From positions 1 through 22,109 of the IMG/VR virus record IMGVR_UViG_3300025781_000086: a DNA stretch of 22,109 bases; one strand, given 5' to 3'. Below are positions 9,503-22,109 of the stretch, piece by piece. Origin of the DNA: a virus. The first letter of the stretch is position 1, and each line of letters begins with the position of its first letter. The translations under genes and the position numbers were made by a program. Under the pieces are notes generated by a model that ran no database searches, was not told the DNA's origin, and worked only from the letters and a program-made list of their open reading frames with translations.

Positions 9503-10618
9503 TTATGTTTCTCGTAGAATGTAATCTAATTCAGGAACAACATCTTTCAGCTGTGTATTTCGCCGCATGTCAAGAACATCATTTAGGGCTACGAACTTCT
9601 TGCACCAGTCATCGGTGTTTATAACCGCTGGCAATTTCAGATGATTTGTAATGTGCTGCAGTTTGTCGCGAGCAGCATGAGAATTGTATGTTGATATCAA
9701 TCTTTCTTTGTATTCTGTGGGAAGATTCCTAGCATCTAGCGCCTCTGGTACGCGCAAAAATATTGGATTGATCCATATGCCAAACTCGTCGGCTAAATCC
9801 AAGATATCCGTGTAGGCGTGCGCATTGTAGACGCTGATGACACTCACTAGGTTAAATTTGATGTGATCAAACTTTTTTGCTAAATCAGACATCAATCTTA
9901 GATTTTGATAGATTGTGTTCCACTGACTATCTGAACGAATGTAATCATTGAGATCACCAACACCGTCAACGCTGCACCCGATGTTCACTTTCTTCATAGC
10001 ACTCATCAATTCTATCAACTCGTCGCATACAGCAACAGTCATGTTTGAATTGATGAACAATACAAGTTTATCCAAAGCACCATGTTTCTTGATTTGATTC
10101 AATGCTTCCAATATCTCTTCCTGATGCAACAATGGTTCACCGCCCATGAACTGCAAACGTGTGATTGTTTTTGCTTGCGAAGGGCTGAGTTCCCATTTTG
10201 AACTGAGCAATCCAACCGATTCCTCTCCAAGTGCTACAGCATCTGGAATCCATTTCGTTGACCGTTCCTGGTTACACGATCTGCATTTGATGTTGCACAC
10301 ATTGCTTAGATTCACTTCTTCGCTACGCAACTGTGACGGCAAATTGAAATCTACGTCTAATAGTTTGGCAATCTCAAATCCATATGTTCTATGGCTTCTG
10401 CCCTTAGTAGTTTCGTTGCGGATGCATTTTTGGCATCTCTCATGCGGTTGGTTATCTATAAAAGACTGCCTAAGAGAGGACATGAAGTTGCCGTGAAAGA
10501 AATCCTCACGACTGTAGCGTTTTACAGCACCTCCCCATACACAACATGGGTTGACACCGCCATCGGTTAATATATTCTGATGAAACCAAGGCCAAGCACA
10601 AAAAGGAGTCTCATGCAT
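9503..10618 (-). CDS. Radical SAM protein with N-terminal twitch-like Cys motif (copy 1)
   Basis: Radical S-adenosylmethionine enzyme of unknown substrate, 371 aa. The radical-SAM cluster motif CNIKCRSC gives Cys108, Cys112 and Cys115, and GGEP at 159-162 is the SAM-binding motif. An auxiliary Cys set lies before the core: FCAWPW (Cys7), NPCC (Cys25/26) and CQKC (Cys62/65), preceded by the PW and DGGV hallmarks of SPASM/twitch segments. Later barrel strands are visible (LVLFINSNMTV, IGCSVDGVGD). The C-terminus has only one scattered Cys, so no C-terminal SPASM domain. It overlaps its upstream paralogue by 8 bases (ATGCATGA) and is followed by gp4. The location in a late head-tail region is odd for an enzyme. 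Class is certain; function is unknown. Confidence 0.88.
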   Translation of the reverse strand: MHETPFCAWPWFHQNILTDGGVNPCCVWGGAVKRYSREDFFHGNFMSSLRQSFIDNQPHERCQKCIRNETTKGRSHRTYGFEIAKLLDVDFNLPSQLRSEEVNLSNVCNIKCRSCNQERSTKWIPDAVALGEESVGLLSSKWELSPSQAKTITRLQFMGGEPLLHQEEILEALNQIKKHGALDKLVLFINSNMTVAVCDELIELMSAMKKVNIGCSVDGVGDLNDYIRSDSQWNTIYQNLRLMSDLAKKFDHIKFNLVSVISVYNAHAYTDILDLADEFGIWINPIFLRVPEALDARNLPTEYKERLISTYNSHAARDKLQHITNHLKLPAVINTDDWCKKFVALNDVLDMRRNTQLKDVVPELDYILRET

Positions 10619-11735
10619 CTTCTGTATCCAGTGCAGCAGCTAGGCTTGGAATACAATCTTGCAACCTAGTACCTCTGCGATGATCAAGGAACTCGTTGTA
10701 TTTGTGGAACTGATCACGCCAATCTGATGTTTTCACGGTAGGATCAGATGAAAGATGGGATATTATAGGTTCCAGTTTTCTTTTATATCGAGAACTGGAT
10801 TTATACATGTCTAGCAGCTGTTTCTTGTATTGATGGGGTAGATTTCTAGCATTGAGATGTTCAGGGATACGAAGCAATATTGGATTGACCCACGTATCAA
10901 ATTCTCTGGCTAAATCCAATATTTCTATGTATGAATGAGCATTGTAAACACTGTAGAGGCATGCTATGTTGAAAAGAATATGAGCATGCGATCGGCTTAA
11001 TTCTCTGATTTGAGTTAGATTAGAAACTACATCTTCCCAATTTGTATCAGATCTTATGTATTCATTTTGCACACCTATGCCATCAATGCTGCAGCCAATA
11101 CCTACTTTTTTCATGCCCATCATCAGTGTCATTAACTCATCTGACAGAGATACTGTGATGTTAGAATTGATGAAAAGTGTGAGATTATGTAGATTGTCCT
11201 GCTCCTTTACGGTTCGCAATATGTCTACTATTTGATCTTGGTGCAACAATGGTTCTCCGCCCAAGAACTGCAAACGTTTGATCTCCTTGGCCCTATCTGA
11301 ACTAAGTTCCCAACCAGATTCCAAGACTTTTACTGCAGTTTCACCTAAAGCAACTGCATCTGGTATCCATTTTGTTGACCTGTGTTGATTACAAGATCTA
11401 CACTTGACATTACAAACGTTGCTGAGATTTACCTCTTGGCTTTGTAGACTGGGATTGGATTCAAAATCTATCCCTAGAAGCTTAGCCATATCAAAACTGA
11501 AAGTTCTCTGGCTAGCTCCTTTGATTTTTTCATTTGTTATGCACTTGTGACAAGATTCGCCAGGCTGCTGAGCTATAAAAGATCGTCTTAGATCTTCTAA
11601 CCATTCACCCTCAAAGAAGCTGCTATGATCATAGCTAGGAATGCCTGGTCCCCACTGCGAACAGGGGTTAACACCGCCGTCGGTCAGCACATGTTGATGG
11701 AACCACGGCCATGCACAGAATGGACCGCTTTGCAC
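10611..11735 (-). CDS. Radical SAM protein with N-terminal twitch-like Cys motif (copy 2)
   Basis: Paralogue of the radical-SAM protein encoded just downstream (374 aa), matching over the whole length with the same key positions: Cys7 (FCAWPW), Cys25, Cys62/65 (CHKC), and Cys108/112/115 (CNVKCRSC), followed by GGEP. It differs at the first auxiliary site, where CCVW is replaced by CSQW, so one potential cluster ligand is missing. The start is GTG, fixed by an in-frame stop two codons upstream, with GAGA about 6 bases before it. It begins 3 bases after the 158-aa structural gene and in the same frame. On five sampled 60-base lines I count 116/300 G+C, against 154/300 in gp17, suggesting a different origin. 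The pair may form a heterodimer or act on successive sites; substrate unknown. Confidence 0.86.
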   Translation of the reverse strand: MQSGPFCAWPWFHQHVLTDGGVNPCSQWGPGIPSYDHSSFFEGEWLEDLRRSFIAQQPGESCHKCITNEKIKGASQRTFSFDMAKLLGIDFESNPSLQSQEVNLSNVCNVKCRSCNQHRSTKWIPDAVALGETAVKVLESGWELSSDRAKEIKRLQFLGGEPLLHQDQIVDILRTVKEQDNLHNLTLFINSNITVSLSDELMTLMMGMKKVGIGCSIDGIGVQNEYIRSDTNWEDVVSNLTQIRELSRSHAHILFNIACLYSVYNAHSYIEILDLAREFDTWVNPILLRIPEHLNARNLPHQYKKQLLDMYKSSSRYKRKLEPIISHLSSDPTVKTSDWRDQFHKYNEFLDHRRGTRLQDCIPSLAAALDTEDA

Positions 11736-11738
11736 GTT

Positions 11739-12215
11739 TTATCTCACGAATGCAGCAGCTATAGTAGGGCCAAGCGTGGGGTTTTTCGTCCATACCGGAA
11801 ACGGATTGATACCCACGTATCCAAGCTGACTAGTTGGTAGGCGAATGCTGTTTATGGTAGCCATGAAGTCGTTCATGAGCACACCTTTTTGGAATAGATT
11901 GCCCACAGGCTCGCCTGTCTGACCAGAATAGTATGTGGCCATGTTAGCCAATACCTGTATCAGCTCGTCTGGCACACCCGGACCACCAAAGACACCAAGT
12001 GCCAGTTGATAGGCATTGGTACTCATGTTGGTTACGTATCTGGCCGGAGAATTAGACAACGCATAATTGGTGTAATCATTGCTAGACGGCAATGGTACAC
12101 CTTTGGAATTGGCCCACTGATATGCACCACCCTGTTGCGTGCCCTGCAGTTGTCCGCTTTGAGTGGCTAATTGTTTTTGTATGTTGCTTTGGATGATATC
12201 TTTAGGACCGCTCAT
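11739..12215 (-). CDS. Probable virion structural protein (158 aa)
   Basis: I do not recognise a named family. It is Gln/Ser/Asn-rich at the N-terminus (IQKQLATQSGQLQGTQQGGA), contains YVTNMSTNAYQLALGVFGGP in the middle, and ends in INPFPVWTKNPTLGPTIAAAF. There is no Cys, no signal peptide and no convincing membrane segment. The start overlaps the stop of the 568-aa tail-tube-like gene (TAATG), with a GAGG ribosome site 7 bases upstream, so the two are translationally coupled. It follows gp19 and the tail-tube-like gene, which suggests a tail or baseplate part. That role is inference. Confidence 0.7.
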   Translation of the reverse strand: MSGPKDIIQSNIQKQLATQSGQLQGTQQGGAYQWANSKGVPLPSSNDYTNYALSNSPARYVTNMSTNAYQLALGVFGGPGVPDELIQVLANMATYYSGQTGEPVGNLFQKGVLMNDFMATINSIRLPTSQLGYVGINPFPVWTKNPTLGPTIAAAFVR

Positions 12216-13921
12216 TAGTATACCTCGCCATCTAAATTTTCATTCTGATAAGGATATGCAACAGGAGGTGGCTCATTGTCGCTGGGATCGCCGCCGTATA
12301 TACCGGGGTCATCAAGATAACCAAATCCGCTTACGGTATTATTGCTCAATGCTGCTGCTGTTGACAGATTAACTCCGAATTCAGGATCGGGAGCTGGCTG
12401 ATAGTATGATTGATCATATCCAGTAAACACTCCGTATTGATCGTATGCGGGATTGCCAATTTCCAACGTCAAGCTCACTTGACCTTGTTGCACTCTGCGA
12501 CGAGCGTACTCTATCTGCTGACGCTGTGTGAGATAGCGAGGGCCGTCTGGTCCATAATTGGAATTGAGCTGGTTATGATAACTGATGCGCAGGCTTGGTA
12601 TCTGTTGTCCAGGAACTATGGTTGGTTGGGCATTCAGCTGAGCTGCATCATCTGGCACACCCGGACGATAACTCACTGTGCCGGTCACTGGGTCGTAGCT
12701 GCTGGAATAGTTTGCACCAACGGTTGTTAACACTCTTCCACCACCAAAATTGAAGGCTCCAAATGTGCCTAGCAGGTTATAAATGCCTGATCCAGTTACC
12801 TGAGTGAACTCCGTAGCCTCGTCAAACTGCACGTATTGTGGTATGTTAGGTAGCTGACCTTGTGGCAAGCCAGTCAATCCATAATTTTCTGGTATCGGGA
12901 AATTGCTTGGATTACCGCCGATAGTTGTTGCGCCGTCTCTTGGAGGAGTACCTGGTCCATACACAACGTCTGATGCAGCAGATGCGCTGACATATGATAC
13001 TTGTCCTGCCGGCACGTTAAGATCAGTGCCAGGTTGGTATTTGTTTGAAGAAGCTATTATGGCTGTGTAATTTGCACCAGATACACCTGCAGCCGGCGGT
13101 GCAGCTGCTATAGGACTGGTTATGTTTGGTCGATCAGCAAAGATGCTTGGTTGATAATCCACTCCGCTAAGATTAGTTGGCCCCTGTGCCGTCGGTATTG
13201 GTGCCGGAGTGTAACTTGGCTCGATGTACGGAGAAGCAAAGAGTCCAAATTGTTCTGCCAGCTCTACGGTCAATGTTCCGGCATTATACTGAAGAGTTTC
13301 ATATGTCAGCGTCATGCGAAAATCTTCAAGATCGCTGCTGCTGGTGTCGTGGTTTCCAAAATCAATGCTGCTTACTTTGGGATTCAAATATGTCGTAAGC
13401 GTATATTCGCTGCCGTAAAGTGCATAGATGTTTAACGCCGTAAAGAATTGTATTTGATTGACCAGCGGGCGCAATCCCCAGCCAGTGCTGTCATCAAAGG
13501 TTGGATCAACCACGCTGGTTCCCATGGTAGCAGCAGATTTATATCGTGCATCGCCAAAATAATAATTGAAATACTCAACCCACATTGTTAAAGGGGCGTT
13601 GTCTACCGTGTCATATATGGAGATGCTCACAGGCTTGTATTCTGTTTTAGTATAAGCATATCTCTTGCGATTATATTGGTTCAACTCACGTTGTTGTAGA
13701 TCAATGTTAGGCTTGTCAATGGTCCTGATCTTGAAACTAACACCGCCTTGCCAGTTGCTGATCTTGTTTAGATTGCTAAACATGCTCAAAGCTTCTGGAC
13801 TAACCTGGAAGTTGGCATAGAACATGTACTTGACCCTGGGGATCTGGTACATGGTTTGGCCAGGACTGTTGGCTCCAAAGAATACCGAAGCATATGAGGT
13901 ATTTTTCAATATGGTTGCCAT
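12215..13921 (-). CDS. Tail-tube-like structural protein with long C-terminal extension (568 aa)
   Basis: Structural protein. Roughly the first 230 residues look like a gp19-type tail-tube domain: IPRVKYMFYANFQVSP, VSFKIRTIDKPNIDLQQ, LNQYNRKRYAYTKTEYKPVS, ISIYDTVDNAPLTMWVEYF and DLEDFRMTLTYETLQYNAGT. The rest (about 340 residues) is Pro/Gly/Ser/Gln-rich and probably extended, ending acidic. In T4 the tube initiator proteins gp48 and gp54 share the tube fold, so a baseplate or tail-terminal role is plausible, but I cannot say which. The ATG has no Shine-Dalgarno; a CTAAATA motif lies 5 bases upstream. It sits after gp19 and its terminator, so it is probably a separate late transcript with the 158-aa gene. 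Confidence 0.75.
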   Translation of the reverse strand: MATILKNTSYASVFFGANSPGQTMYQIPRVKYMFYANFQVSPEALSMFSNLNKISNWQGGVSFKIRTIDKPNIDLQQRELNQYNRKRYAYTKTEYKPVSISIYDTVDNAPLTMWVEYFNYYFGDARYKSAATMGTSVVDPTFDDSTGWGLRPLVNQIQFFTALNIYALYGSEYTLTTYLNPKVSSIDFGNHDTSSSDLEDFRMTLTYETLQYNAGTLTVELAEQFGLFASPYIEPSYTPAPIPTAQGPTNLSGVDYQPSIFADRPNITSPIAAAPPAAGVSGANYTAIIASSNKYQPGTDLNVPAGQVSYVSASAASDVVYGPGTPPRDGATTIGGNPSNFPIPENYGLTGLPQGQLPNIPQYVQFDEATEFTQVTGSGIYNLLGTFGAFNFGGGRVLTTVGANYSSSYDPVTGTVSYRPGVPDDAAQLNAQPTIVPGQQIPSLRISYHNQLNSNYGPDGPRYLTQRQQIEYARRRVQQGQVSLTLEIGNPAYDQYGVFTGYDQSYYQPAPDPEFGVNLSTAAALSNNTVSGFGYLDDPGIYGGDPSDNEPPPVAYPYQNENLDGEVY

Positions 13922-13987: not shown

Positions 13988-14584
13988 TTAACCGATTTGT
14001 GGTCCGAATCCAGTCTGTACAGGATCAGTTGTCATGATGTCCGGATCCTGTGTAGCGTTGTCATAACGTATTGTCAACGTGATCATCATTGATTCACTGT
14101 TGCTGTAATCAAACGTATCATAAGCTACTGTTTCTAGGTAGCAACCTTCCAGATACCAGTTTTCAAGCACACCGTCATTAGAACCATCAAGGGTTTCAAT
14201 CTGCGTGTTGAACTTGTAGTTGATACCAGATAGGAATGATGTCTGGTTAAAGTGGTTCATCTGCTTCTGCAGCTGATAAGCAACCAAGGTGCTCACGCTG
14301 CTGCTGACGTCATCGCGTACAGTAATTTCAATGGTTTGCCATTCTGGCTTTTGTGCCACGTACATGATGTTGTTGTAGCTGTGTATTGGCGTGCTATTGT
14401 GCTGAATGCTAGGACGACCAGCTGTAGCCACCTGCACTGTGAGCTGCGTGGCTGCTCCTGGAGGTCCAAAACTCTGCATGCTCACACGGAATCGATACTT
14501 CAGCTTTGGCATTAGAATGCCGTTGCCGCTAACGCCCGGAACTATCGGAACGCCAAACTGGCTGAGTGTTGGGGTGAAGGCCAT
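13988..14584 (-). CDS. gp19: gp19 tail tube protein
   Basis: Tail tube monomer of the contractile tail, forming the inner tube inside the gp18 sheath. At 198 aa it is somewhat longer than T4 gp19 (163). The tube fold is suggested by PKLKYRFRVSMQSFG, the loop PGAATQLTVQVATAGRPSIQ, then PEWQTIEITVRDDV, LSGINYKFNTQIETLDG, GVLENWYLEGCYLETVAYD and SESMMITLTIRYDNA, alternating strands as in gp19 and Hcp-like proteins. The AGGAG ribosome site is 8 bases upstream, the CATAAATA late promoter lies at 14610-14617, and a strong terminator follows, so gp19 probably has a dedicated abundant transcript. In T4 gp18 and gp19 are adjacent; here the cargo block separates them. Confidence 0.9.
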   Translation of the reverse strand: MAFTPTLSQFGVPIVPGVSGNGILMPKLKYRFRVSMQSFGPPGAATQLTVQVATAGRPSIQHNSTPIHSYNNIMYVAQKPEWQTIEITVRDDVSSSVSTLVAYQLQKQMNHFNQTSFLSGINYKFNTQIETLDGSNDGVLENWYLEGCYLETVAYDTFDYSNSESMMITLTIRYDNATQDPDIMTTDPVQTGFGPQIG

Positions 14585-14609: not shown

Positions 14610-14617
14610 TATTTATG
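14610..14617 (-). promoter_or_regulatory. Late promoter CATAAATA before gp19
   Basis: GGCATAAATACTATT on the minus strand matches the T4-type late promoter core (TATAAATA) with C in the first position and is the same GGCATAAATAC as before gp32. The inferred start near 14604 gives a leader of about 20 bases with AGGAG. Confidence 0.65.
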
Positions 14618-14644: not shown

Positions 14645-15766
14645 TTACAGCTTGCGCGATTTTGGAATCTTGCTGTCAGCACTGCTGACACAGGCGCTGC
14701 TGATACATGGCATCGGACTGTCAAAAAGCTTGAATCCTGTTTCTATATAACCCAGAGGTTTGTCACTGCAGCTGTAACTACGTTTGATAGCACCGTCGGG
14801 CTCTCGGATGATGATGCTGCGATACCCGCTCTCGCAGTCCCAGCCCTTGAAATTGTTGAAGTTGAACGCATTGAAACGTTCAGCTTGATCCATATACCAT
14901 TTTTGTCCAGTATCATCTTCAAATTCCACCTGCATGATCTGCGGTACAGATGCATCATCCCCGTTATCGATGCTCATCCTCTGCATGCTCATCTTTGGCT
15001 TTGGTCGTTTCACCTTGCTCTTAACTGTTGTGAAATCGCGCTGCGGCATGCCATTATGCAGTGTAGCTAACTGTTCTGCAGTATAACCATCAACTACCTT
15101 GCTAGCAGTAGGGTCGCTCTGCGGTTTCAAAGTCACGTTTATCCCGCGGCTTAAGAAGTATTCTGCCTCAGCATAGAGCGTATCAAACCATTCTGGTACC
15201 ATCACAGTGTTTACGGTAACCTGCACATCGCGCTCTTGAAGGAACACTAGCTTGTCTGCAAATTTCTCCGTATGAGCCTTGAGGTCACCTTGCTTGATTC
15301 CCTGCTCTCGATGCCAGCTAGCAGTGACGCTGACTCGATGTAGGTCTTTAGTAGCATCAACGTATTTCTCAAACCAACGCAGTCCCTGCGAGACGTTGCT
15401 GGTCATGTGTACGCTTTGATAATTGCAATTCTCAGTATCATTGGCATAGTGAGACAAAAGCTGTAGATAGTCTGGATATACGGTTGGTTCTCCGCCGCTG
15501 AAACTGAAATGAAAGCTGTTGTAACCTCGGTCGCGGCTCTGTCGTTTGATCTCATCCATGGTCAAGAGATTCAATTCTATTGGACGATAATCCTTGCTGT
15601 TGCTGCGTGCGTAAGGCCAACAATAGCTGCAGTTGTAATTGCAATACCTGCCAAGCAACCAACTCACAGCAAACATGTCTCTATACAGCAAGCTACGTTG
15701 GCCAAATTTCACTATCCTGTCAAAAGGTATCTTGGTAAAATCATAACTGCTCACTGCGTCATTCAT
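14645..15766 (-). CDS. Radical SAM protein with C-terminal SPASM/twitch-like Cys set
   Basis: Radical-SAM enzyme of a different type from the other four (373 aa). The cluster motif CNYNCSYC (Cys42, Cys46, Cys49) comes early in the chain, with SGGEP at 90-94. Later barrel elements are SVTASWHRE and VTVNTVMVPEWF. The C-terminal region has Cys311, Cys333, Cys354 and Cys359, with REPDGAIKRSYSC between the first two, which resembles a SPASM/twitch auxiliary-cluster domain. Such enzymes commonly modify peptides or small metabolites. It overlaps the SDR gene by four bases (ATGA) and is the last gene of the cargo operon before gp19. Five sampled lines give 143/300 G+C, closer to the core phage genes than the other cargo. 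Substrate unknown. Confidence 0.85.
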   Translation of the reverse strand: MNDAVSSYDFTKIPFDRIVKFGQRSLLYRDMFAVSWLLGRYCNYNCSYCWPYARSNSKDYRPIELNLLTMDEIKRQSRDRGYNSFHFSFSGGEPTVYPDYLQLLSHYANDTENCNYQSVHMTSNVSQGLRWFEKYVDATKDLHRVSVTASWHREQGIKQGDLKAHTEKFADKLVFLQERDVQVTVNTVMVPEWFDTLYAEAEYFLSRGINVTLKPQSDPTASKVVDGYTAEQLATLHNGMPQRDFTTVKSKVKRPKPKMSMQRMSIDNGDDASVPQIMQVEFEDDTGQKWYMDQAERFNAFNFNNFKGWDCESGYRSIIIREPDGAIKRSYSCSDKPLGYIETGFKLFDSPMPCISSACVSSADSKIPKSRKL

Positions 15767-16317
15767 GCCTGCACCTGTATAGGATCAATGCTTAGTTCGT
15801 TTATAGCAACACCGTTTGGTTGATCTACTACCCATTTAACATAGCTGGCGGCTAGATCAATGTCCATGCATGTACGATCTGGATGTTTGCTTTGGTTGTT
15901 GCTCAATGTCCCAAAGCTGATGTAGGACACTGTTGGACCTCCAGACCAAACTCCGGTTATATTAAGGCTGTTGCAATAGCTGCGCAGAGCCTTTTTCTCT
16001 TGTTGATATAACCAATCGCTGCCTTTGGTGGTCCTATCCGTGGTACTGCCTATGCAGACTATCTTAAGGTCATGCTTGGCTAACTTAGCAGCCTTATAGA
16101 CAGTTTCCAAAACTAAGGTCTGGTGAAATTTCCATAATGCGCTGTTGTTTATGAACACATCATATTCAATGCACATGCGAGCTAGATTCTCAATGAGGTT
16201 AGATTTTGTGAGATCCCATCCATTGCTCCGGCTGACGAAGGTAGCATTAGGCCAAAGCGCATGCAATGATCCTGCCAATCCCTTGGTCGGGTTACCTGTT
16301 ATCAATATCTTTGTCAC
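15763..16317 (-). CDS. Short-chain dehydrogenase/reductase-like protein
   Basis: Compact Rossmann-fold protein of the SDR type, 184 aa against about 250 for classical members. Visible motifs are the N-terminal strand and nucleotide loop ILITGNPTKGLAG (residues 4-16, a variant of TGxxxGxG with one extra residue), FINNSA (55-60, in place of NNAG), the conserved IGSTTD strand (Ser91), the catalytic-type Y-x-x-x-K as Tyr104/Lys108 (YQQEK), and GGPTVS near 126-131, where classical members have PG. The set suggests an active NAD(P)-dependent oxidoreductase or epimerase/dehydratase. The start is GTG, overlapping the upstream radical-SAM stop by four bases (GTGA), and it overlaps the next gene by four. 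Shared translation points to a common pathway with the radical-SAM enzymes. Confidence 0.75.
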   Translation of the reverse strand: MTKILITGNPTKGLAGSLHALWPNATFVSRSNGWDLTKSNLIENLARMCIEYDVFINNSALWKFHQTLVLETVYKAAKLAKHDLKIVCIGSTTDRTTKGSDWLYQQEKKALRSYCNSLNITGVWSGGPTVSYISFGTLSNNQSKHPDRTCMDIDLAASYVKWVVDQPNGVAINELSIDPIQVQA

Positions 16318-17624
16318 AGATACCCTCTCAGTTCTGGCACTACGTCAATTATGTTTTGTCCGCGTATTTCATCTAGACGCTTGGTGTAAGAAACGAAACC
16401 ATGCCAATGAGCGCTGTGATAATCTTGTGCATGCATATAACCTAAAACGCTATTCTTTATCATAATTGCACTGTCAATCACATGCTGCGGATAATCGTTT
16501 TCAATCACCCACTGATTAAAATCTTCAAATTTTTCTTTTACTAAGACTTTCAATTCAGCTGGCAACACCCTGATGTTGGTTTGTTGAGGATTATGGGCTA
16601 CATGATGAGTGACTATTGGGCGCCTTCTGGTGTTATTGAATTTAGATAAGCCACTCTGTTCAAGTTTCCATCGCATGAAATCTGGCATGTGTAGGACATT
16701 GTATGCTGTAACCGTGTACGCAAACCATGCATTGATGTTCTCTGAGCTAGAATCAATGACCTGTATGTTATGCCATACCTTTTGCCAACTTGCAGGATAT
16801 CGCTGATATTCTAACACAGATCCATAACCGTCGATGCTAGCTCCTATCTGTATGGTCTTAAACTGCTTCCATAGATTCAATGCTCTCGAAGATATGCTAG
16901 TCATGTTGGTGTTGTATTCGATCAACATGTTTTTAGCAGCGCCGTTTTCAATGCACCTCTCTAAAAACTCATAATGACGTTCTATGAGCAACGGTTCGCC
17001 GCCTGCCATGTATACGTGTTGTATGTTACCAGAATTACTTTCTATCTGCTGCCAAAAGCTATCACTGTCGTGCCAGCCATAGCTGTGACTGATCCACTTG
17101 CCGTTTTGCTTGATCATCTGCTCACGGCCGTGCGTATCATCAAACCAATCTTTACCCTCTAACTGGTAATGATCATCGTACCATCCTGTGCTGTCCTGCG
17201 GACCACACATCCTGCAAGCGAGATTGCAGAGATTTCCAAATCTCAAATCATAATACGCCACCGGAAAGTCATCTGTATTGATTGACCCGTCTTCTGCTGT
17301 AAGCTCTCGCACATCCTCGGCACGCAGAGTCCATCTATCATGTTCATAATTGCGCCTACTGATCAATCCAGTTGCTTCTTCACTCTTGCAGCGACCACAT
17401 TCTTCGCTCCAAATACCAGACAGCATGTTCTTGCGCATGATCTTCATCAGATCGCTGTTGCGCGATTCTGCTAAATTGTCGCGAGCAGCATTGTACGGAT
17501 TGCCGTCTTGTTTCCGCAGAACTCCTTTGTTTTTTGTAATATTTGCCTGACAGCATACTCGTAGATCACCATTGCTGCGTACAGCCTGAAAGTTCCACGG
17601 TATTGGACAAAAACACTCAGCCAC
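16314..17624 (-). CDS. Radical SAM protein with N-terminal twitch-like Cys motif (436 aa)
   Basis: Radical-SAM enzyme with an auxiliary cysteine set before the core. The N-terminus reads CFCPIPW (Cys4, Cys6), then SNGDLRVCC (Cys24/25) and CGRC (Cys76/79). The cluster motif CNLACRMC gives Cys133, Cys137 and Cys140, and GGEP is at 208-211. Further barrel strands are IEYNTNMTS and IGASIDGYGS. The C-terminal third is His/Asn-rich with VTHHVAHNPQ and no Cys. The start is GTG inside the end of the upstream gene, overlapping it by 8 bases (GTGGCTGA), and the stop overlaps the SDR gene. It is related to the 424-aa protein upstream and more distantly to the pair at 9503-11735. Substrate unknown. Confidence 0.87.
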   Translation of the reverse strand: MAECFCPIPWNFQAVRSNGDLRVCCQANITKNKGVLRKQDGNPYNAARDNLAESRNSDLMKIMRKNMLSGIWSEECGRCKSEEATGLISRRNYEHDRWTLRAEDVRELTAEDGSINTDDFPVAYYDLRFGNLCNLACRMCGPQDSTGWYDDHYQLEGKDWFDDTHGREQMIKQNGKWISHSYGWHDSDSFWQQIESNSGNIQHVYMAGGEPLLIERHYEFLERCIENGAAKNMLIEYNTNMTSISSRALNLWKQFKTIQIGASIDGYGSVLEYQRYPASWQKVWHNIQVIDSSSENINAWFAYTVTAYNVLHMPDFMRWKLEQSGLSKFNNTRRRPIVTHHVAHNPQQTNIRVLPAELKVLVKEKFEDFNQWVIENDYPQHVIDSAIMIKNSVLGYMHAQDYHSAHWHGFVSYTKRLDEIRGQNIIDVVPELRGYL

Positions 17625-18891
17625 GATAATCAGCCTTCCATTCTCTTGCTGTCATAGCAGCCATGGGGAATATCGTTTCCCAATCTTGCCTTTGATTGAG
17701 CTGTAAATTATCCCAAACCCGCAAGAAATAACCACGTTGCTCAGCAAGCTCGTCTGGCGACATGCGCACTTTATCGTGCATGGTTTCATACTGATCAATC
17801 TTTGGCAGCAATCTTTTGTGTCCATCTAGTTTTGATCTCGATGCATCAATGCAGCGCATGAGCTGATGTTTATCCATTAAACCAATGTTAAAGTATTTTG
17901 GATTGTATACCAAATGGCTAACTGTTTCTTTGATTTTCTTGTAGCGTTGATCAGCTATCCACGACAGGAGTTCACCGTAATGTTCTAATGATAGCATGCT
18001 GATCGTAGTTGATAAGAACACATGTATGTTATCGTCTGAGGAATCTAACATGCGCAGGTTGTCAACAACTGTTGGCCATTTGGTATGATACCTAATTGCT
18101 TCATTGGCTTGACCAAATGCATCAATGCTTCCGCATATCCTAATCAGCTTGAATTTTTTCCAAATATCAAATAGATCTGGCGGAAACACAGTTAGGTTTG
18201 AACTGTACTCTAATTCCATTCGGTCGGCATACCCCAAGCCTATCAACGACTCGAGAAGATAGCGATGATGCTTGATCAACAATGGCTCGCCGCCGCCAAA
18301 CTTGATCTTGATCAAATCTGTTGATTGTGATAGCAACGCATCTATGTTTTTCCTATCTTTTGACCATCCAAACGCATTTTTTGCTGTTGCTAGGTCATAT
18401 TTTTTGCCGTCTACTACAAAATAATCCCAGCCCAGTATGTCTTCGTGTACATCAATCCATTTAGATGACTCACCGGCAAAGCACATCACACAGCGTAGAT
18501 TGCATTCATTACCTATGCGTAGATCAAAATCCTGCCAAGATCCACCGTTGACTGTACCATCAGGATCAGTCATTGACAGTGCCATTTCCTTGGTAAAGCT
18601 TTGTAGATGCCTTTGTGTTTCCCACTGATCTCGACTGTTAATACCAGCTAGCGATTCGTCTTTGCAGCGTTTGCATTGCGCTGGCCACTTGCCTTTCAAC
18701 ATGTCTCTACGCACTGTCTTGAGAGTATCACAATTGATGATATCTGCACCGCTAAGGTCTGCAATGTTCAAGACCACGTCGTTGTTGCATAATAACGTGT
18801 TGCCTTTGCCGGCACTTTGGCTGTGCGAGCACATGCGAAGATCGCCGTTGTTTTTGACTCCAAGATGAGTCCAAGGCAACGGACACCACAT
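17617..18891 (-). CDS. Radical SAM protein with N-terminal twitch-like Cys motif (424 aa)
   Basis: First gene of the four-gene cargo operon. The N-terminus MWCPLPW (Cys3) leads into NNGDLRMCSHS (Cys21) and CKRC (Cys73/76), the same auxiliary layout as its neighbour, but with CS in place of CC. The radical-SAM motif CNLRCVMC gives Cys130, Cys134 and Cys137, followed by GGGEPLLIKHH. Strands LEYSSNLTV and ICGSIDAFGQ match the paralogue. The C-terminus has no auxiliary Cys cluster. Start is an ATG with only a weak GGA upstream. Five sampled lines give 123/300 G+C, below gp17. It is transcribed divergently from the PLP-enzyme gene across a 68-base spacer. Function unknown. Confidence 0.87.
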   Translation of the reverse strand: MWCPLPWTHLGVKNNGDLRMCSHSQSAGKGNTLLCNNDVVLNIADLSGADIINCDTLKTVRRDMLKGKWPAQCKRCKDESLAGINSRDQWETQRHLQSFTKEMALSMTDPDGTVNGGSWQDFDLRIGNECNLRCVMCFAGESSKWIDVHEDILGWDYFVVDGKKYDLATAKNAFGWSKDRKNIDALLSQSTDLIKIKFGGGEPLLIKHHRYLLESLIGLGYADRMELEYSSNLTVFPPDLFDIWKKFKLIRICGSIDAFGQANEAIRYHTKWPTVVDNLRMLDSSDDNIHVFLSTTISMLSLEHYGELLSWIADQRYKKIKETVSHLVYNPKYFNIGLMDKHQLMRCIDASRSKLDGHKRLLPKIDQYETMHDKVRMSPDELAEQRGYFLRVWDNLQLNQRQDWETIFPMAAMTAREWKADYRG

Positions 18892-18959
18892 TAGGATTTT
18901 TCCAAACGGTTGCGCATCATAATATATACATCCTAGCAGAGAGCAAGTAAACTGATATC
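18892..18959. promoter_or_regulatory. Divergent intergenic region of the cargo cluster
   Basis: This 68-base spacer separates the leftward radical-SAM operon from the rightward PLP gene, so promoters for both probably lie here. It has an A+T-rich core, CATAATATATACAT (about 18917-18931). On the minus strand TTTACT (18946-18951) stands 17 bases from TATATA (18923-18928), a weak sigma70-like pair; on the plus strand CATAAT resembles a -10. Neither strand has a convincing late CTAAATA/CATAAATA motif here, nor a good ribosome site. Confidence 0.35.
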
Positions 18960-19811
18960 ATGCGTGACAGTCCAGATCGACAATATACCAAAGAGTGGTT
19001 GCAAATTGATCGACCTCAGCCAATGTATGACAATGGCATAAACCGTCTTTATAGCAATATTTACCAGAAAAATCCAGTAGATTCTGCAGATATTGTCAAT
19101 GATTTCAAAAAGGTATTCTTAGAATTTCTCAAAGGACATACCCTGAGTAATCTCAGAGGATATGACAATTTTGAACGATTAGATATATGCATGGGATGCA
19201 CACAGTTCATTGATGACCTATACCAGCGGCTCGGTCCGACCGGATTGATGATATGGAGACGCGAATACAAATATCATTGGAGACTAAATCCAGAATTAGT
19301 TGCAACTAAGGTAGATACTCTTGATCCAAAGAAAGAATTATTGATAAGCATGCCGTTTTCATTTTACGGCGATGTGCATCCAAGAATGACAGAGATATTA
19401 GATCGTTGCGCCGAGCTAGAAATTCCTGTGCACATAGACGGTGCGTATATTACCTGTAGCAGAGATGTAGATTTTGACTTTGATCATCCTGCTATCAAGA
19501 CATTTGCCATAAGTCTTAGCAAGGGCGGACTTGGTCCAGATAGAGTAGCGTTAAGGTTTGCAAGATCAAAACCCGAAGGTTCTATTACCATCATGAATGA
19601 TTTTAACATGGTAAGCCAAAGCCTACTCAACGTTGGTATCGCTTTTATGAAAGAACTAGGACCTGAGTATTTTTGGAGAAAGTACGGTGGTGCTTATGAA
19701 CAGGTTTGTAAGGATTTTGAACTCTTGCCAACAAAATCCATTCATCTTGCCAGGACACAAGACGGAGAACCTGTAGGCATTAGGCCGCTGCTACGCTGTT
19801 TGGTAAAATGA
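18960..19811 (+). CDS. PLP-dependent aminotransferase-like enzyme, fold type I
   Basis: The only plus-strand gene, 283 aa. Aminotransferase-type features in order: CMGCTQFIDDLYQRLGP (78-93), a substitute for the usual glycine-rich cofactor segment; LLISMPFSFYGDVHPRMTEI; VHIDGAY with Asp160 to pair with the pyridine nitrogen and Tyr163; and FAISLSKGG with Lys188, the expected Schiff-base lysine, followed by LGPDRVALRF (Arg195). It is about 100 residues shorter than usual class I/II aminotransferases and seems to lack most of the C-terminal small domain. No Shine-Dalgarno is evident. The G+C is low (116/300 on five lines). It ends 6 bases from a convergent 96-aa gene. Placement beside the radical-SAM/SDR operon suggests a joint pathway; its substrate is not predictable. 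Class assignment is by motif only. Confidence 0.65.
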   Translation: MRDSPDRQYTKEWLQIDRPQPMYDNGINRLYSNIYQKNPVDSADIVNDFKKVFLEFLKGHTLSNLRGYDNFERLDICMGCTQFIDDLYQRLGPTGLMIWRREYKYHWRLNPELVATKVDTLDPKKELLISMPFSFYGDVHPRMTEILDRCAELEIPVHIDGAYITCSRDVDFDFDHPAIKTFAISLSKGGLGPDRVALRFARSKPEGSITIMNDFNMVSQSLLNVGIAFMKELGPEYFWRKYGGAYEQVCKDFELLPTKSIHLARTQDGEPVGIRPLLRCLVK

Positions 19812-19817
19812 TCTGAT

Positions 19818-20108
19818 TCAAGCGTGTCCTATGATGCCATATTGACTAGCATCATACAGCTTACTAACTTCTGTGATCTGATTCTTCATTATCTGATTGA
19901 CCAGCTTGATGTTGCTCTTATGAGCAGAAGGATCAAGCTGTCCTATAACATGACCTATATTCATGCTCAGCACCGTCAGAACGACATCATTTGCGATCTC
20001 AGTGCTGGTGTTGTTTTCCAACTGAGCATGCAATCCTGCTAGGTATGTGTACAAAGCAGCACTTAAATCGTTCTTGAGATCTATAGTCTTTTGTTCCAAC
20101 TCATCCAT
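19818..20108 (-). CDS. Small hypothetical protein (96 aa) downstream of gp18
   Basis: I do not recognise this protein. It is predicted mostly helical (DELEQKTIDLKNDLSAALYT, then VVLTVLSMNIGHVIGQLD), contains no Cys, and ends YDASQYGIIGHA. The ATG has no Shine-Dalgarno but is preceded at 5 bases by CTTAAATA, a late-promoter-like motif. It lies after the gp18 terminator and converges on the PLP gene with 6 bases between stops. Roles as a small late virion or chaperone protein, or as a peptide substrate of the cargo enzymes, are guesses. The frame is open in a region with no competing gene. Confidence 0.55.
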   Translation of the reverse strand: MDELEQKTIDLKNDLSAALYTYLAGLHAQLENNTSTEIANDVVLTVLSMNIGHVIGQLDPSAHKSNIKLVNQIMKNQITEVSKLYDASQYGIIGHA

Positions 20109-20121: not shown

Positions 20122-20157
20122 TGTCAATCCGCACAACAAGCAACTACCCAGATAAGG

Positions 20158-20182
20158 TAAACCGGGCATTTAGCCCGGTTTA
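20158..20182 (-). terminator. Bidirectional-type terminator after gp18
   Basis: A perfect 10-bp stem (TAAACCGGGC / GCCCGGTTTA) with a 5-base loop lies 5 bases past the gp18 stop. In the minus direction the T-tract is short (GGTTTACC); in the plus direction a T-rich stretch (TTTATGTTTTTA) follows, so it could also stop read-through from the PLP gene. Confidence 0.75.
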
Positions 20183-20187
20183 TGTTT

Positions 20188-22109
20188 TTATCCTATTGCC
20201 TGTTGTTGGTTGCCAGTTGTTCTAGCGCCTCCAGGCAGCGGCTGAGTCAATGCCAATACTCTGATTGGTATGTAGATGAACTCGATAGCAACTTCTGGTT
20301 GTATCGCAACGTCAATCCACAACTCATTAGCAGATATTCTAGCAGGAGTATTGTTGCTAGTATCGCAAACCACTGAGTAATCATAGATAGCTCTCAAACC
20401 AATCAAGTTACCCATGAAGCTGTTGAACGCAGCGGTCACAGCCTGACGTGTCTGTTGATCGTTTGGCTCAAACAAGAATGGCTGTGCCAGTGTGTTCAAG
20501 TTGCGCGATAGATAGTTGATCAAGCGTGCAACATTGACTCGATCCAACAATGTGGTAATTGGATCCAGTGTCTTCTGACCAAATATCACCAAACCTCTGT
20601 TAGGTATGTAACTGATTGGATTGATGCTGTTGAGATACAGCACATCTCGCTGACCTTGGTTCAACGTCACAGGTTGGTATGTTCCATCTGCTTTGAGATA
20701 TCCAACGCTTAGTGCGCCAGATACAAGTCCGCGGTTGAAACCTGCTGGAGCAAACCATGGGTATGCAACCTGGTCATTGTAAGCATAGGTCGTAAGTGCC
20801 ATGACGCTTGGCGGAACAAACACGTTGTTACCATCAAGGTTAGTCTCAAGGGCCCATGGATAATACACCGCAGCATAAGGACTATGAGTGATCAGCGCGT
20901 CTGGACCATCTCCTGCAGCATTCGCGGCATTGGTAGCCCAGTTTGCCAAGCTGGTCGTATCTGCTGGCAGCGTACCCGGAGGATCAGCAACAATGAAGAA
21001 CGTATCCTGGCGATCAGTATTCAGAAGCACCATGTCTGCCAAGCATTCAATGTATCCCGGTGTTGCCATCAAGTTGTAATACACGGCTTCGCCGCGTATC
21101 TGTTGATTGCTTTGGATCGCAGCATTTAGTGCCTTAGTGACCATCACGCGCTGTGCAGAGGAAGCCATGTATGGTGTTCCGTCTGGACGATTTCCGCTTG
21201 CTGTTACCCATGCGTTTTTATCGTAAGGTGCACTTAGTGTTGGGAAGTAGTTTACATAATACTGCTTGACATTGTATGTGCTGTAACGTGTGTTGAACAG
21301 CAGCATGCCTGCTGGATATAGCTCGGCGTTAGGAGCATCGCTATCCACATAGTTGCTGACCACCATGGCGCTAGGAGCTTGGCTACCATTGGTGTAACCA
21401 TCGTTGTTCCAACGAGCATCGGTGAATATGATGCCCGATGGGCTAGAATGGTTCGTGTTGTCTATAAGCGAGAATGAGCTTGTGCTTGCATCGTAACGAT
21501 AAAGCACAGGATACGGTGTAGCACTGCTGTCTACCCAGATGTCGTTGGTAACCAACGGTGTTCCATCACTCTGTGTAGTAGGCATGCTACCGTCAATGAT
21601 TGGTCCGTTTGGATCTGTTGCAGGATATGCATTCTTATAACCTTGCCAGATCTGACCATTGCCAACCATGATGTCAACCTGCAGGTATGTGTTGTACCAC
21701 AGGGTTCCATCAGCAGGTGGGCCAACTGGTGCAGTTGCATTTGCCGTATAATCTAATGGTTCCCAAGCAGATCCATCCCAGTAGTAGAGCACTATGTTGG
21801 CAATAGCTGGGCTATTAGCTTCGTAGTTATAGCGTCCATATACAGTTCCAATGCCACGCAGCGCACCAAATGCAGCGTTAGCTACAGCGTCGCTGCTGTA
21901 CAATGGAACAGTACCGGTGTTTGGTACAGTGTTTTCCTGGATCCAAAGAGAACCGTTGTACTTGCTAACCACCAAGTTAGCTCCGCGATCCTGGCTGGTT
22001 GTATTGATCCAGACGTTAGTCGCTGCAGTCTGTGCAAGAGTGCTAGGGACTGTTAGGCTTGGATAATAACCTTGGTATACCAACTGGCGTCCAAACACAT
22101 AACCGTTCT
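20188..22109 (-). CDS. gp18: gp18 tail sheath protein, N-terminus off the right edge
   Basis: Contractile tail sheath. About 639 residues are visible against 659 in T4 gp18, so only the first residues are missing. The open frame continues to the right edge, and the first GTG near 22098 is not the true start. The C-terminal sheath signature is clear: NPISYIPNRGLVIFGQKTL, LLDRVNVARLINYLSRNL, QPFLFEPNDQQTRQAV, LRAIYDYSVVCDTSNNTPAR and ELWIDVAIQPEVAIEFIYIP. Upstream lie repeated Trp/Thr-rich elements (TLWYNTYLQVDIMVGNGQIW, NDIWVDSSATPYPVLYRYD) characteristic of an inserted variable region in long sheath proteins. It is followed by a terminator, then the 96-aa gene. Abundant late expression is expected. 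Confidence 0.93.
   Translation of the reverse strand, partial: NGYVFGRQLVYQGYYPSLTVPSTLAQTAATNVWINTTSQDRGANLVVSKYNGSLWIQENTVPNTGTVPLYSSDAVANAAFGALRGIGTVYGRYNYEANSPAIANIVLYYWDGSAWEPLDYTANATAPVGPPADGTLWYNTYLQVDIMVGNGQIWQGYKNAYPATDPNGPIIDGSMPTTQSDGTPLVTNDIWVDSSATPYPVLYRYDASTSSFSLIDNTNHSSPSGIIFTDARWNNDGYTNGSQAPSAMVVSNYVDSDAPNAELYPAGMLLFNTRYSTYNVKQYYVNYFPTLSAPYDKNAWVTASGNRPDGTPYMASSAQRVMVTKALNAAIQSNQQIRGEAVYYNLMATPGYIECLADMVLLNTDRQDTFFIVADPPGTLPADTTSLANWATNAANAAGDGPDALITHSPYAAVYYPWALETNLDGNNVFVPPSVMALTTYAYNDQVAYPWFAPAGFNRGLVSGALSVGYLKADGTYQPVTLNQGQRDVLYLNSINPISYIPNRGLVIFGQKTLDPITTLLDRVNVARLINYLSRNLNTLAQPFLFEPNDQQTRQAVTAAFNSFMGNLIGLRAIYDYSVVCDTSNNTPARISANELWIDVAIQPEVAIEFIYIPIRVLALTQPLPGGARTTGNQQQAIG

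Follow-up and report, generated by a model that had tools for sequence, protein, structure and literature searches.

A radical SAM, SDR and PLP enzyme cassette at the tail sheath–tail tube junction of a jumbo phage lineage

Introduction

Radical SAM (rSAM) genes in multiple copies have previously been reported from large phages, without a product. The T4-like marine phage genome TARA_ERS488813_N000010 is described as carrying 12 rSAM genes (PMC5332604), and pelagimyophages as holding rSAM cassettes in a host-recognition cluster, a hypervariable island among structural genes, together with LPS and sugar genes (PMC7029224). The locus presented here resembles these T4-like marine phage cassettes, as described, in its multi-copy rSAM genes. 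The portions of the two reports that describe the marine cassettes name no partner genes, whereas here a PLP enzyme is paired with a twitch-rSAM enzyme and an SDR-type oxidoreductase with a further rSAM enzyme, at the sheath–tube junction of a jumbo phage and with a link to Bdellovibrionota. Phage rSAM cassettes are already known; this gene set, its site and its Bdellovibrionota link appear to be new.

Several characterized rSAM enzymes offer points of comparison. BtrN, the twitch-rSAM dehydrogenase of butirosin biosynthesis, carries out a two-electron oxidation in which the auxiliary cluster is proposed to act as electron acceptor (PMC9012708). It combines an rSAM domain with an auxiliary cluster, of which the twitch-rSAM enzymes described below have a putative counterpart, perhaps ligated by four Cys residues, and like them it has a PLP-type partner, an aminotransferase, in an alcohol-to-amine logic; unlike BtrN, the present enzymes carry the twitch at the N-terminus, and their PLP partner is of the class I/II amino-acid type rather than the sugar-aminotransferase type. 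The pairing of an rSAM enzyme with a partner reductase in AprD4/AprD3 is presumably the nearest parallel to the rSAM and SDR genes found here. The anaerobic sulfatase-maturating enzyme (anSME), SkfB and EpeE combine an rSAM domain with an auxiliary cluster in a similar fold, but they act on peptides or proteins, and no precursor gene stands at the cassette.

The window and its phage lineage

The window, that is, the whole stretch of DNA analyzed, is a 22,109-base IMG/VR virus record in which open reading frames were called mechanically; the material compared with it consists mostly of metagenomic contigs. Its leftward genes encode tail, neck and packaging proteins of the T4-like jumbo phage type. 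The nearest cultured relatives are Agrobacterium phage Atu_ph07, Sinorhizobium phage Phosso and Pseudomonas phage PA5oct, with identities of about 47–52% to the nearest cultured matches (best for the terminase, about 52%, and the sheath, 48%). Relatives of the sheath, tube and terminase genes stand in the same order in the Atu_ph07/PA5oct jumbo lineage, which places the window within it.

The left border of the cassette is the tail tube gene (13,988–14,584, minus strand; phrog_4542, E=1e-50), adjoined, as in Atu_ph07 and PA5oct, by a gene for a second tube-like protein of 568 aa (12,215–13,921). The right border is the tail sheath gene (20,188–22,098, minus strand), which matches annotated phage tail sheaths and runs off the contig end; sheaths of its relatives are longer (cluster median about 1350 aa). 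A strong hairpin lies directly past the sheath stop codon (20,157–20,183). Next to the sheath, a gene for a 96-aa protein (19,818–20,108, minus strand) keeps this position in close relatives; it is a gene of the lineage and at most a candidate member of the pathway.

Five enzymes with conserved active sites

Between tube and sheath, a sequence-only reading had recognized about 5 kb of enzyme genes, namely three rSAM proteins, an SDR-type oxidoreductase and a divergent PLP enzyme, with overlaps of 4–8 bases among the leftward genes. These coordinates and gene types proved correct, profile scores, motifs and folds agree with the assignments, and the overlaps measure 4, 4 and 8 nt. The minus strand carries an rSAM gene (14,645–15,766; Pfam Radical_SAM, 5e-13, hereafter rSAM14645), a short SDR gene directly upstream of it (15,763–16,317; conserved motifs and SDR profile matches) and two genes for N-terminal-twitch rSAM enzymes (16,314–17,624 and 17,617–18,891; 379 and 288 bits on NCBIfam NF033640, N_Twi_rSAM, with a curated cut-off of 170). 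The second of these lies head-to-head with the gene on the plus strand (18,960–19,811) for a compact fold-type-I PLP enzyme resembling class I/II aminotransferases, as judged from invariant residues and fold. The 96-aa gene aside, no intergenic gap in the cassette exceeds 68 nt. With 33 bits on NF033640, rSAM14645 falls outside N_Twi_rSAM and is treated here as a putatively separate family; no characterized member of NF033640 was found in the open-access literature.

Conservation of active-site residues was read from alignments of 22 to 34 sequences, and the loss of such residues, which would have spoken against a functional pathway, was not seen. The radical SAM signature CX3CX2C is invariant in rSAM14645 (C42, C46 and C49) and in the twitch family, and rSAM14645 is predicted to adopt the rSAM fold. 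Four more Cys residues of rSAM14645 (C311, C333, C354 and C359), the most conserved gene of the cassette, are invariant and consistent with an auxiliary Fe–S cluster; in the twitch family, the further residues C6, C24, C76 and C79 are all invariant as well. The SDR protein retains the catalytic S91 and Y104-x3-K108 in all 27 sequences aligned, together with a conserved N-terminal GN...G motif and SDR profile matches; in a Pfam search the window protein had no match, and a bacterial homolog reached 24.8 bits on adh_short_C2 against a gathering score of 27. In the PLP enzyme, K188 (the Schiff-base Lys), D160 (the pyridine-N Asp) and R279 are invariant, as expected of fold type I, and the conserved arginine points to a substrate of the alpha-amino-acid type more than to a sugar.

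Confident structure predictions were obtained for rSAM14645 (pLDDT 88.7) and the PLP enzyme (pLDDT 91.4). The PLP model matches class I/II aminotransferases at Z 18–19. The rSAM14645 model is closest to BlsE (Z 17.1, at a sequence identity of only about 13%), followed by SkfB (15.8), EpeE (between 15.4 and 15.8), anSME (15.4) and BtrN (12.1). Since these nearest folds mix small-molecule and peptide enzymes, the fold leaves the substrate unsettled, much as the earlier reading had held that sequence alone does not decide the target. Comparison of the window with near relatives gave pN values of 0.05–0.26 and pS values of 0.65–0.90, with synonymous sites mostly saturated. The cassette genes are under strong purifying selection, far from chance or decay; decayed genes are ruled out by this selection and by the kept active sites, and all five enzymes look functional.

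The sheath–tube junction as a cargo site

For 74 tube relatives, the contig that carries the tube also yields a sheath match. The site is empty in 66 of them, with a sheath–tube gap of 34–189 nt, and in the other eight the gap measures 0.9–1.8 kb. The cultured relatives, which share sheath and terminase genes with the window, bear other cargo at this junction instead of rSAM genes: a gene for a Ro-like RNA-binding protein with small ORFs in Atu_ph07 and Phosso, and a homing endonuclease in PA5oct (loci L282, L283 and L284). In the close clade of the window the junction holds the cassette, which spans about 5 kb in the window itself. L092, L096 and L099 have longer versions, and the genes added between rSAM and tube vary.

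A T4-type late-promoter-like motif, CATAAATA, lies upstream of the tube gene (14,610–14,617, minus strand) and is kept in relatives. The window and 48 of 80 tube relatives share its conserved form, NATAAATA, which turns up in 3.4% of random windows; the exact TATAAATA has no match in the window, and no T4-type late promoter motif was seen inside the cassette. Generic promoter and terminator scans gave counts close to those of shuffled sequence. Because sites are mostly empty, cultured relatives carry other cargo and the tube has its own late-promoter motif, we infer that cargo is tolerated here because the junction falls between transcription units, and that no tail operon has been disrupted. 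The description of the cassette as splitting the sheath from the tube holds insofar as the enzymes lie between the two genes, but it does not extend to a broken unit, given that the junction is a cargo hot spot, that most relatives are empty there and that the tube would be read from its own promoter.

Conserved order and recombining modules

The full order of sheath, PLP, twitch, twitch, SDR, rSAM and tube is repeated in an independent contig (L093); it recurs with inserts or swaps in L096, L099 and L090 and in part in L006, L079, L081 and L168. This arrangement is found across many samples, down to about 53–64% identity for some genes. An assembly chimera of phage tail genes and a bacterial operon, which the earlier reading had named as a possible refutation, is ruled out by the repetition of order and junctions in independent contigs from many samples; nothing was found in its favor, and we regard it as practically negligible.

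Linkage was counted in distinct viral loci fetched by homology to the cassette, so that the counts describe linkage among carriers and not prevalence. The PLP gene adjoins a twitch-rSAM gene in 47 of 80 such loci and lies within three genes of one in 70 of 80. Of 90 loci, 21 have the SDR gene directly upstream of rSAM and 51 lack it altogether. In L090, L091 and L104, the PLP and twitch pair is swapped for a paralogous pair in the other orientation, while the twitch, SDR and rSAM genes stay. The five genes are two linked recombining modules, one of PLP and twitch-rSAM and the other of twitch-rSAM, SDR and rSAM. The proposed small biosynthetic or modification pathway is well supported as a functional pathway, as judged from active sites, selection, order and PLP–twitch linkage, but the five genes do not form one fixed unit.

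The gene pool behind these modules is large: at least about 600 viral stretches match the rSAM query, and 20 long viral records each contain 5–23 Radical_SAM and 2–16 NF033640 matches. Among cultured phages, no homolog of rSAM14645, the twitch-rSAM at 17,617, the PLP enzyme or the SDR was found. The twitch-rSAM at 16,314 matches only a single-cell virus of marine origin and the Vibrio phages K566/K567, at 24–27%.

Neighboring genes in phages and two rival readings

Neighbors at the phage loci were scanned as cluster representatives and as a 148-protein sample that includes four bacterial proteins. Their company comprises aspartyl/asparaginyl hydroxylases, QueC-like PP-loop ATPases, nitroreductases, GNATs, 2OG oxygenases, a carbamoyltransferase and B12-binding rSAM proteins. 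The neighbor families c70/c187/c99 and c6 gave no PDB profile, PHROG or listed Pfam match, and the labels "GT-like", "methyltransferase-like" and "prepilin-like" were assigned by eye, without a profile match. A protein family with a conserved DGDN-like motif stands beside rSAM genes in phages and Bdellovibrionota (L184, 14,951–16,596; L036, 161–1,702), with no PHROG or PDB profile match.

Aspartyl/asparaginyl hydroxylases, the commonest family in the phage-side sample, favor the main rival to the small-molecule reading that we develop below, namely peptide or virion-protein modification. RiPP-like maturases would cross-link, epimerize or oxidize a protein of the virion (its tail) or some other protein of the phage or host, and the PLP and SDR enzymes would finish the side chain. 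The presence of SkfB, EpeE, SuiB and anSME among the closest solved folds of rSAM14645 agrees with this, as do the position of the cassette among tail genes and the prepilin-like genes, so labeled by eye, beside some Bdellovibrionota clusters (L189, L192 and L196). RiPP clusters are recognized by a precursor peptide gene adjoining the maturase, and none was found at the locus: the gaps between cassette genes leave no room for one, the 96-aa lineage gene beside the sheath is the only small gene at hand, and the packed bacterial operon L293 contains no precursor either, although a distant one is possible. PLP and SDR partners are moreover unusual in RiPP clusters, and the place beside the tube is accounted for by the cargo hot spot. 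On balance we consider protein modification possible but rather unlikely.

A second alternative is nucleotide or DNA chemistry, yielding a modified nucleotide, a hypermodified base (7-deazaguanine-like or hypermodified thymidine) or a viperin-like product. In phages such as M6, rSAM and PLP enzymes take part in thymidine hypermodification, and some loci contain QueC-like PP-loop genes; these QueC-like matches are, however, partial and weak, and FolE, QueD, QueE and DpdA are not among the 25 families listed for the phage-side sample. The similarity of rSAM14645 to the viperin family (NF038283) amounts to 42 bits, far enough below the cut-off of 180 for membership to be rejected. Since the bacterial homologs also lie in chromosomes in which no DNA-modification context was seen, we judge this alternative improbable.

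Counterparts in Bdellovibrionota

When 84,980 species genomes of bacteria and archaea were scanned, 25 loci emerged, of which 19 lie in MAGs whose names assign them to Bdellovibrionota groups. The other loci include phage-like contigs, one of which (L178) has the same gene content as the IMG/VR record L107 at 100%. Across 18 Bdellovibrionota MAG genomes, there is usually one rSAM copy and 4–20 NF033640 genes, compared with none of 14 control genomes, and ten of the 18 have PLP homologs. Nine of the ten mapped bacterial PLP copies adjoin a twitch-rSAM gene and the tenth lies two genes away. In chromosome G022, an island of about 30 kb contains rSAM, PLP, SDR, PP-loop and B12-rSAM genes, and a phage-type integrase stands at its edge (L289, 12,854–13,963; Pfam PF00589, E=1e-36). 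In an rSAM tree with midpoint rooting, the viral clade of the window is nested among Bdellovibrionota branches. Judged from these comparisons, the closest cellular homologs of the cassette are found in Bdellovibrionota, and the gene pool is shared with their chromosomes.

Neighbor proteins in Bdellovibrionota include GT2 glycosyltransferases (11 of 106, a raw count for genes that are common in bacteria generally), AsnB, an O-acyltransferase and an epimerase. Two arrangements were noted in addition. On one Bdellovibrionota chromosome (L285–L286, G026:C1, about 745–775 kb), eight or more twitch-rSAM genes form an array that also includes a PLP gene. Elsewhere, two genes away from rSAM, lies the gene for a 982-aa protein (L192, 6,437–9,385) that by eye joins a GT2 glycosyltransferase to a radical-SAM-like domain.

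The rSAM gene is patchy in this group, present in 16 of 241 sampled Bdellovibrionota genomes. This distribution, together with the unrelated cargo (Ro-like protein, homing endonuclease) at the insertion hot spot in relatives, would suit genes that supplement host metabolism or supply the host with a cofactor, or cargo that hitchhikes with little benefit to the phage. Strong purifying selection and an order kept over large divergence argue against neutral cargo, and we hold this alternative to be quite unlikely.

A proposed tailoring pathway

An unusual building block is probably what the cassette makes or decorates, and we favor the tailoring of a small molecule or glycan. Specifically, we propose, tentatively and at somewhat less than an even chance, that a compact and mobile tailoring pathway of the natural-product type, inserted as cargo between sheath and tube in this jumbo lineage, would make an amino/deoxy building block for a glycoconjugate of the virion or of the infected cell's envelope. 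The twitch-rSAM enzyme would abstract a hydrogen atom from an alcohol or C–H position and its auxiliary cluster would take the second electron, as proposed for BtrN; the neighboring PLP enzyme would then aminate or decarboxylate the product. rSAM14645 and the SDR might carry out a radical rearrangement, dehydration or decarboxylation followed by NAD(P)H reduction, in steps of the AprD4/AprD3 or BlsE type. With its own late-promoter motif, the tube gene would be undisturbed by the insert.

The tailoring reading draws on the kept active sites and purifying selection, on the fold matches of rSAM14645 (led by BlsE) and of the PLP enzyme, on the SDR profile matches, on the adjacency of PLP and twitch-rSAM genes in phages and bacteria alike and the swap of the PLP module, on the tailoring-type enzymes that neighbor the phage loci, on the GT2, AsnB, O-acyltransferase and epimerase neighbors in Bdellovibrionota, and on the placement of the published pelagimyophage rSAM cassettes in a region described as rich in LPS genes (PMC7029224). 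Against it stand the peptide and protein modifiers SkfB, EpeE and anSME, whose match to the rSAM fold is almost as good as that of BlsE, and, for a sugar substrate in particular, the conserved PLP arginine. No glycosyltransferase was found in the window, nor does one figure in the 25 families most frequent in the phage-side sample, which counts against a glycan, and the glycoconjugate target is the weakest step of the proposal.

A bolder extension is that jumbo phages and Bdellovibrionota predators have in common an undescribed class of rSAM tailoring pathway, in which interchangeable twitch-rSAM/PLP modules would diversify a surface glycoconjugate, and that at least some such phages infect Bdellovibrionota; we regard this as speculative and, as a whole, unlikely.

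In this cassette, phage rSAM genes fall into modules that can be named, that have conserved partners and a cellular counterpart, and whose insertion site is defined. With modules and partners so defined, the pathway could be reconstituted from two to five genes, and through their link to the phage genes Bdellovibrionota provide cells, perhaps even hosts, in which to search for the product. If this product decorates the virion or host surface, it would represent a new phage route to altered recognition; if it decorates a protein, a new virion chemistry.

A second twitch-rSAM pair

A further pair of twitch-rSAM genes, overlooked in the sequence-only reading, lies on the minus strand at 9,503–11,735, between neck and tube genes, where relatives have one or two copies. 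The first gene (9,503–10,618; 252 bits on NF033640, cut-off 170) overlaps the second (10,611–11,735; 232 bits, same cut-off) by 8 nt, and among cultured phages the latter has only matches of about 20%, in KVP40-like phages. The 22-kb contig thus carries five rSAM genes in all, four of which exceed the NF033640 cut-off.
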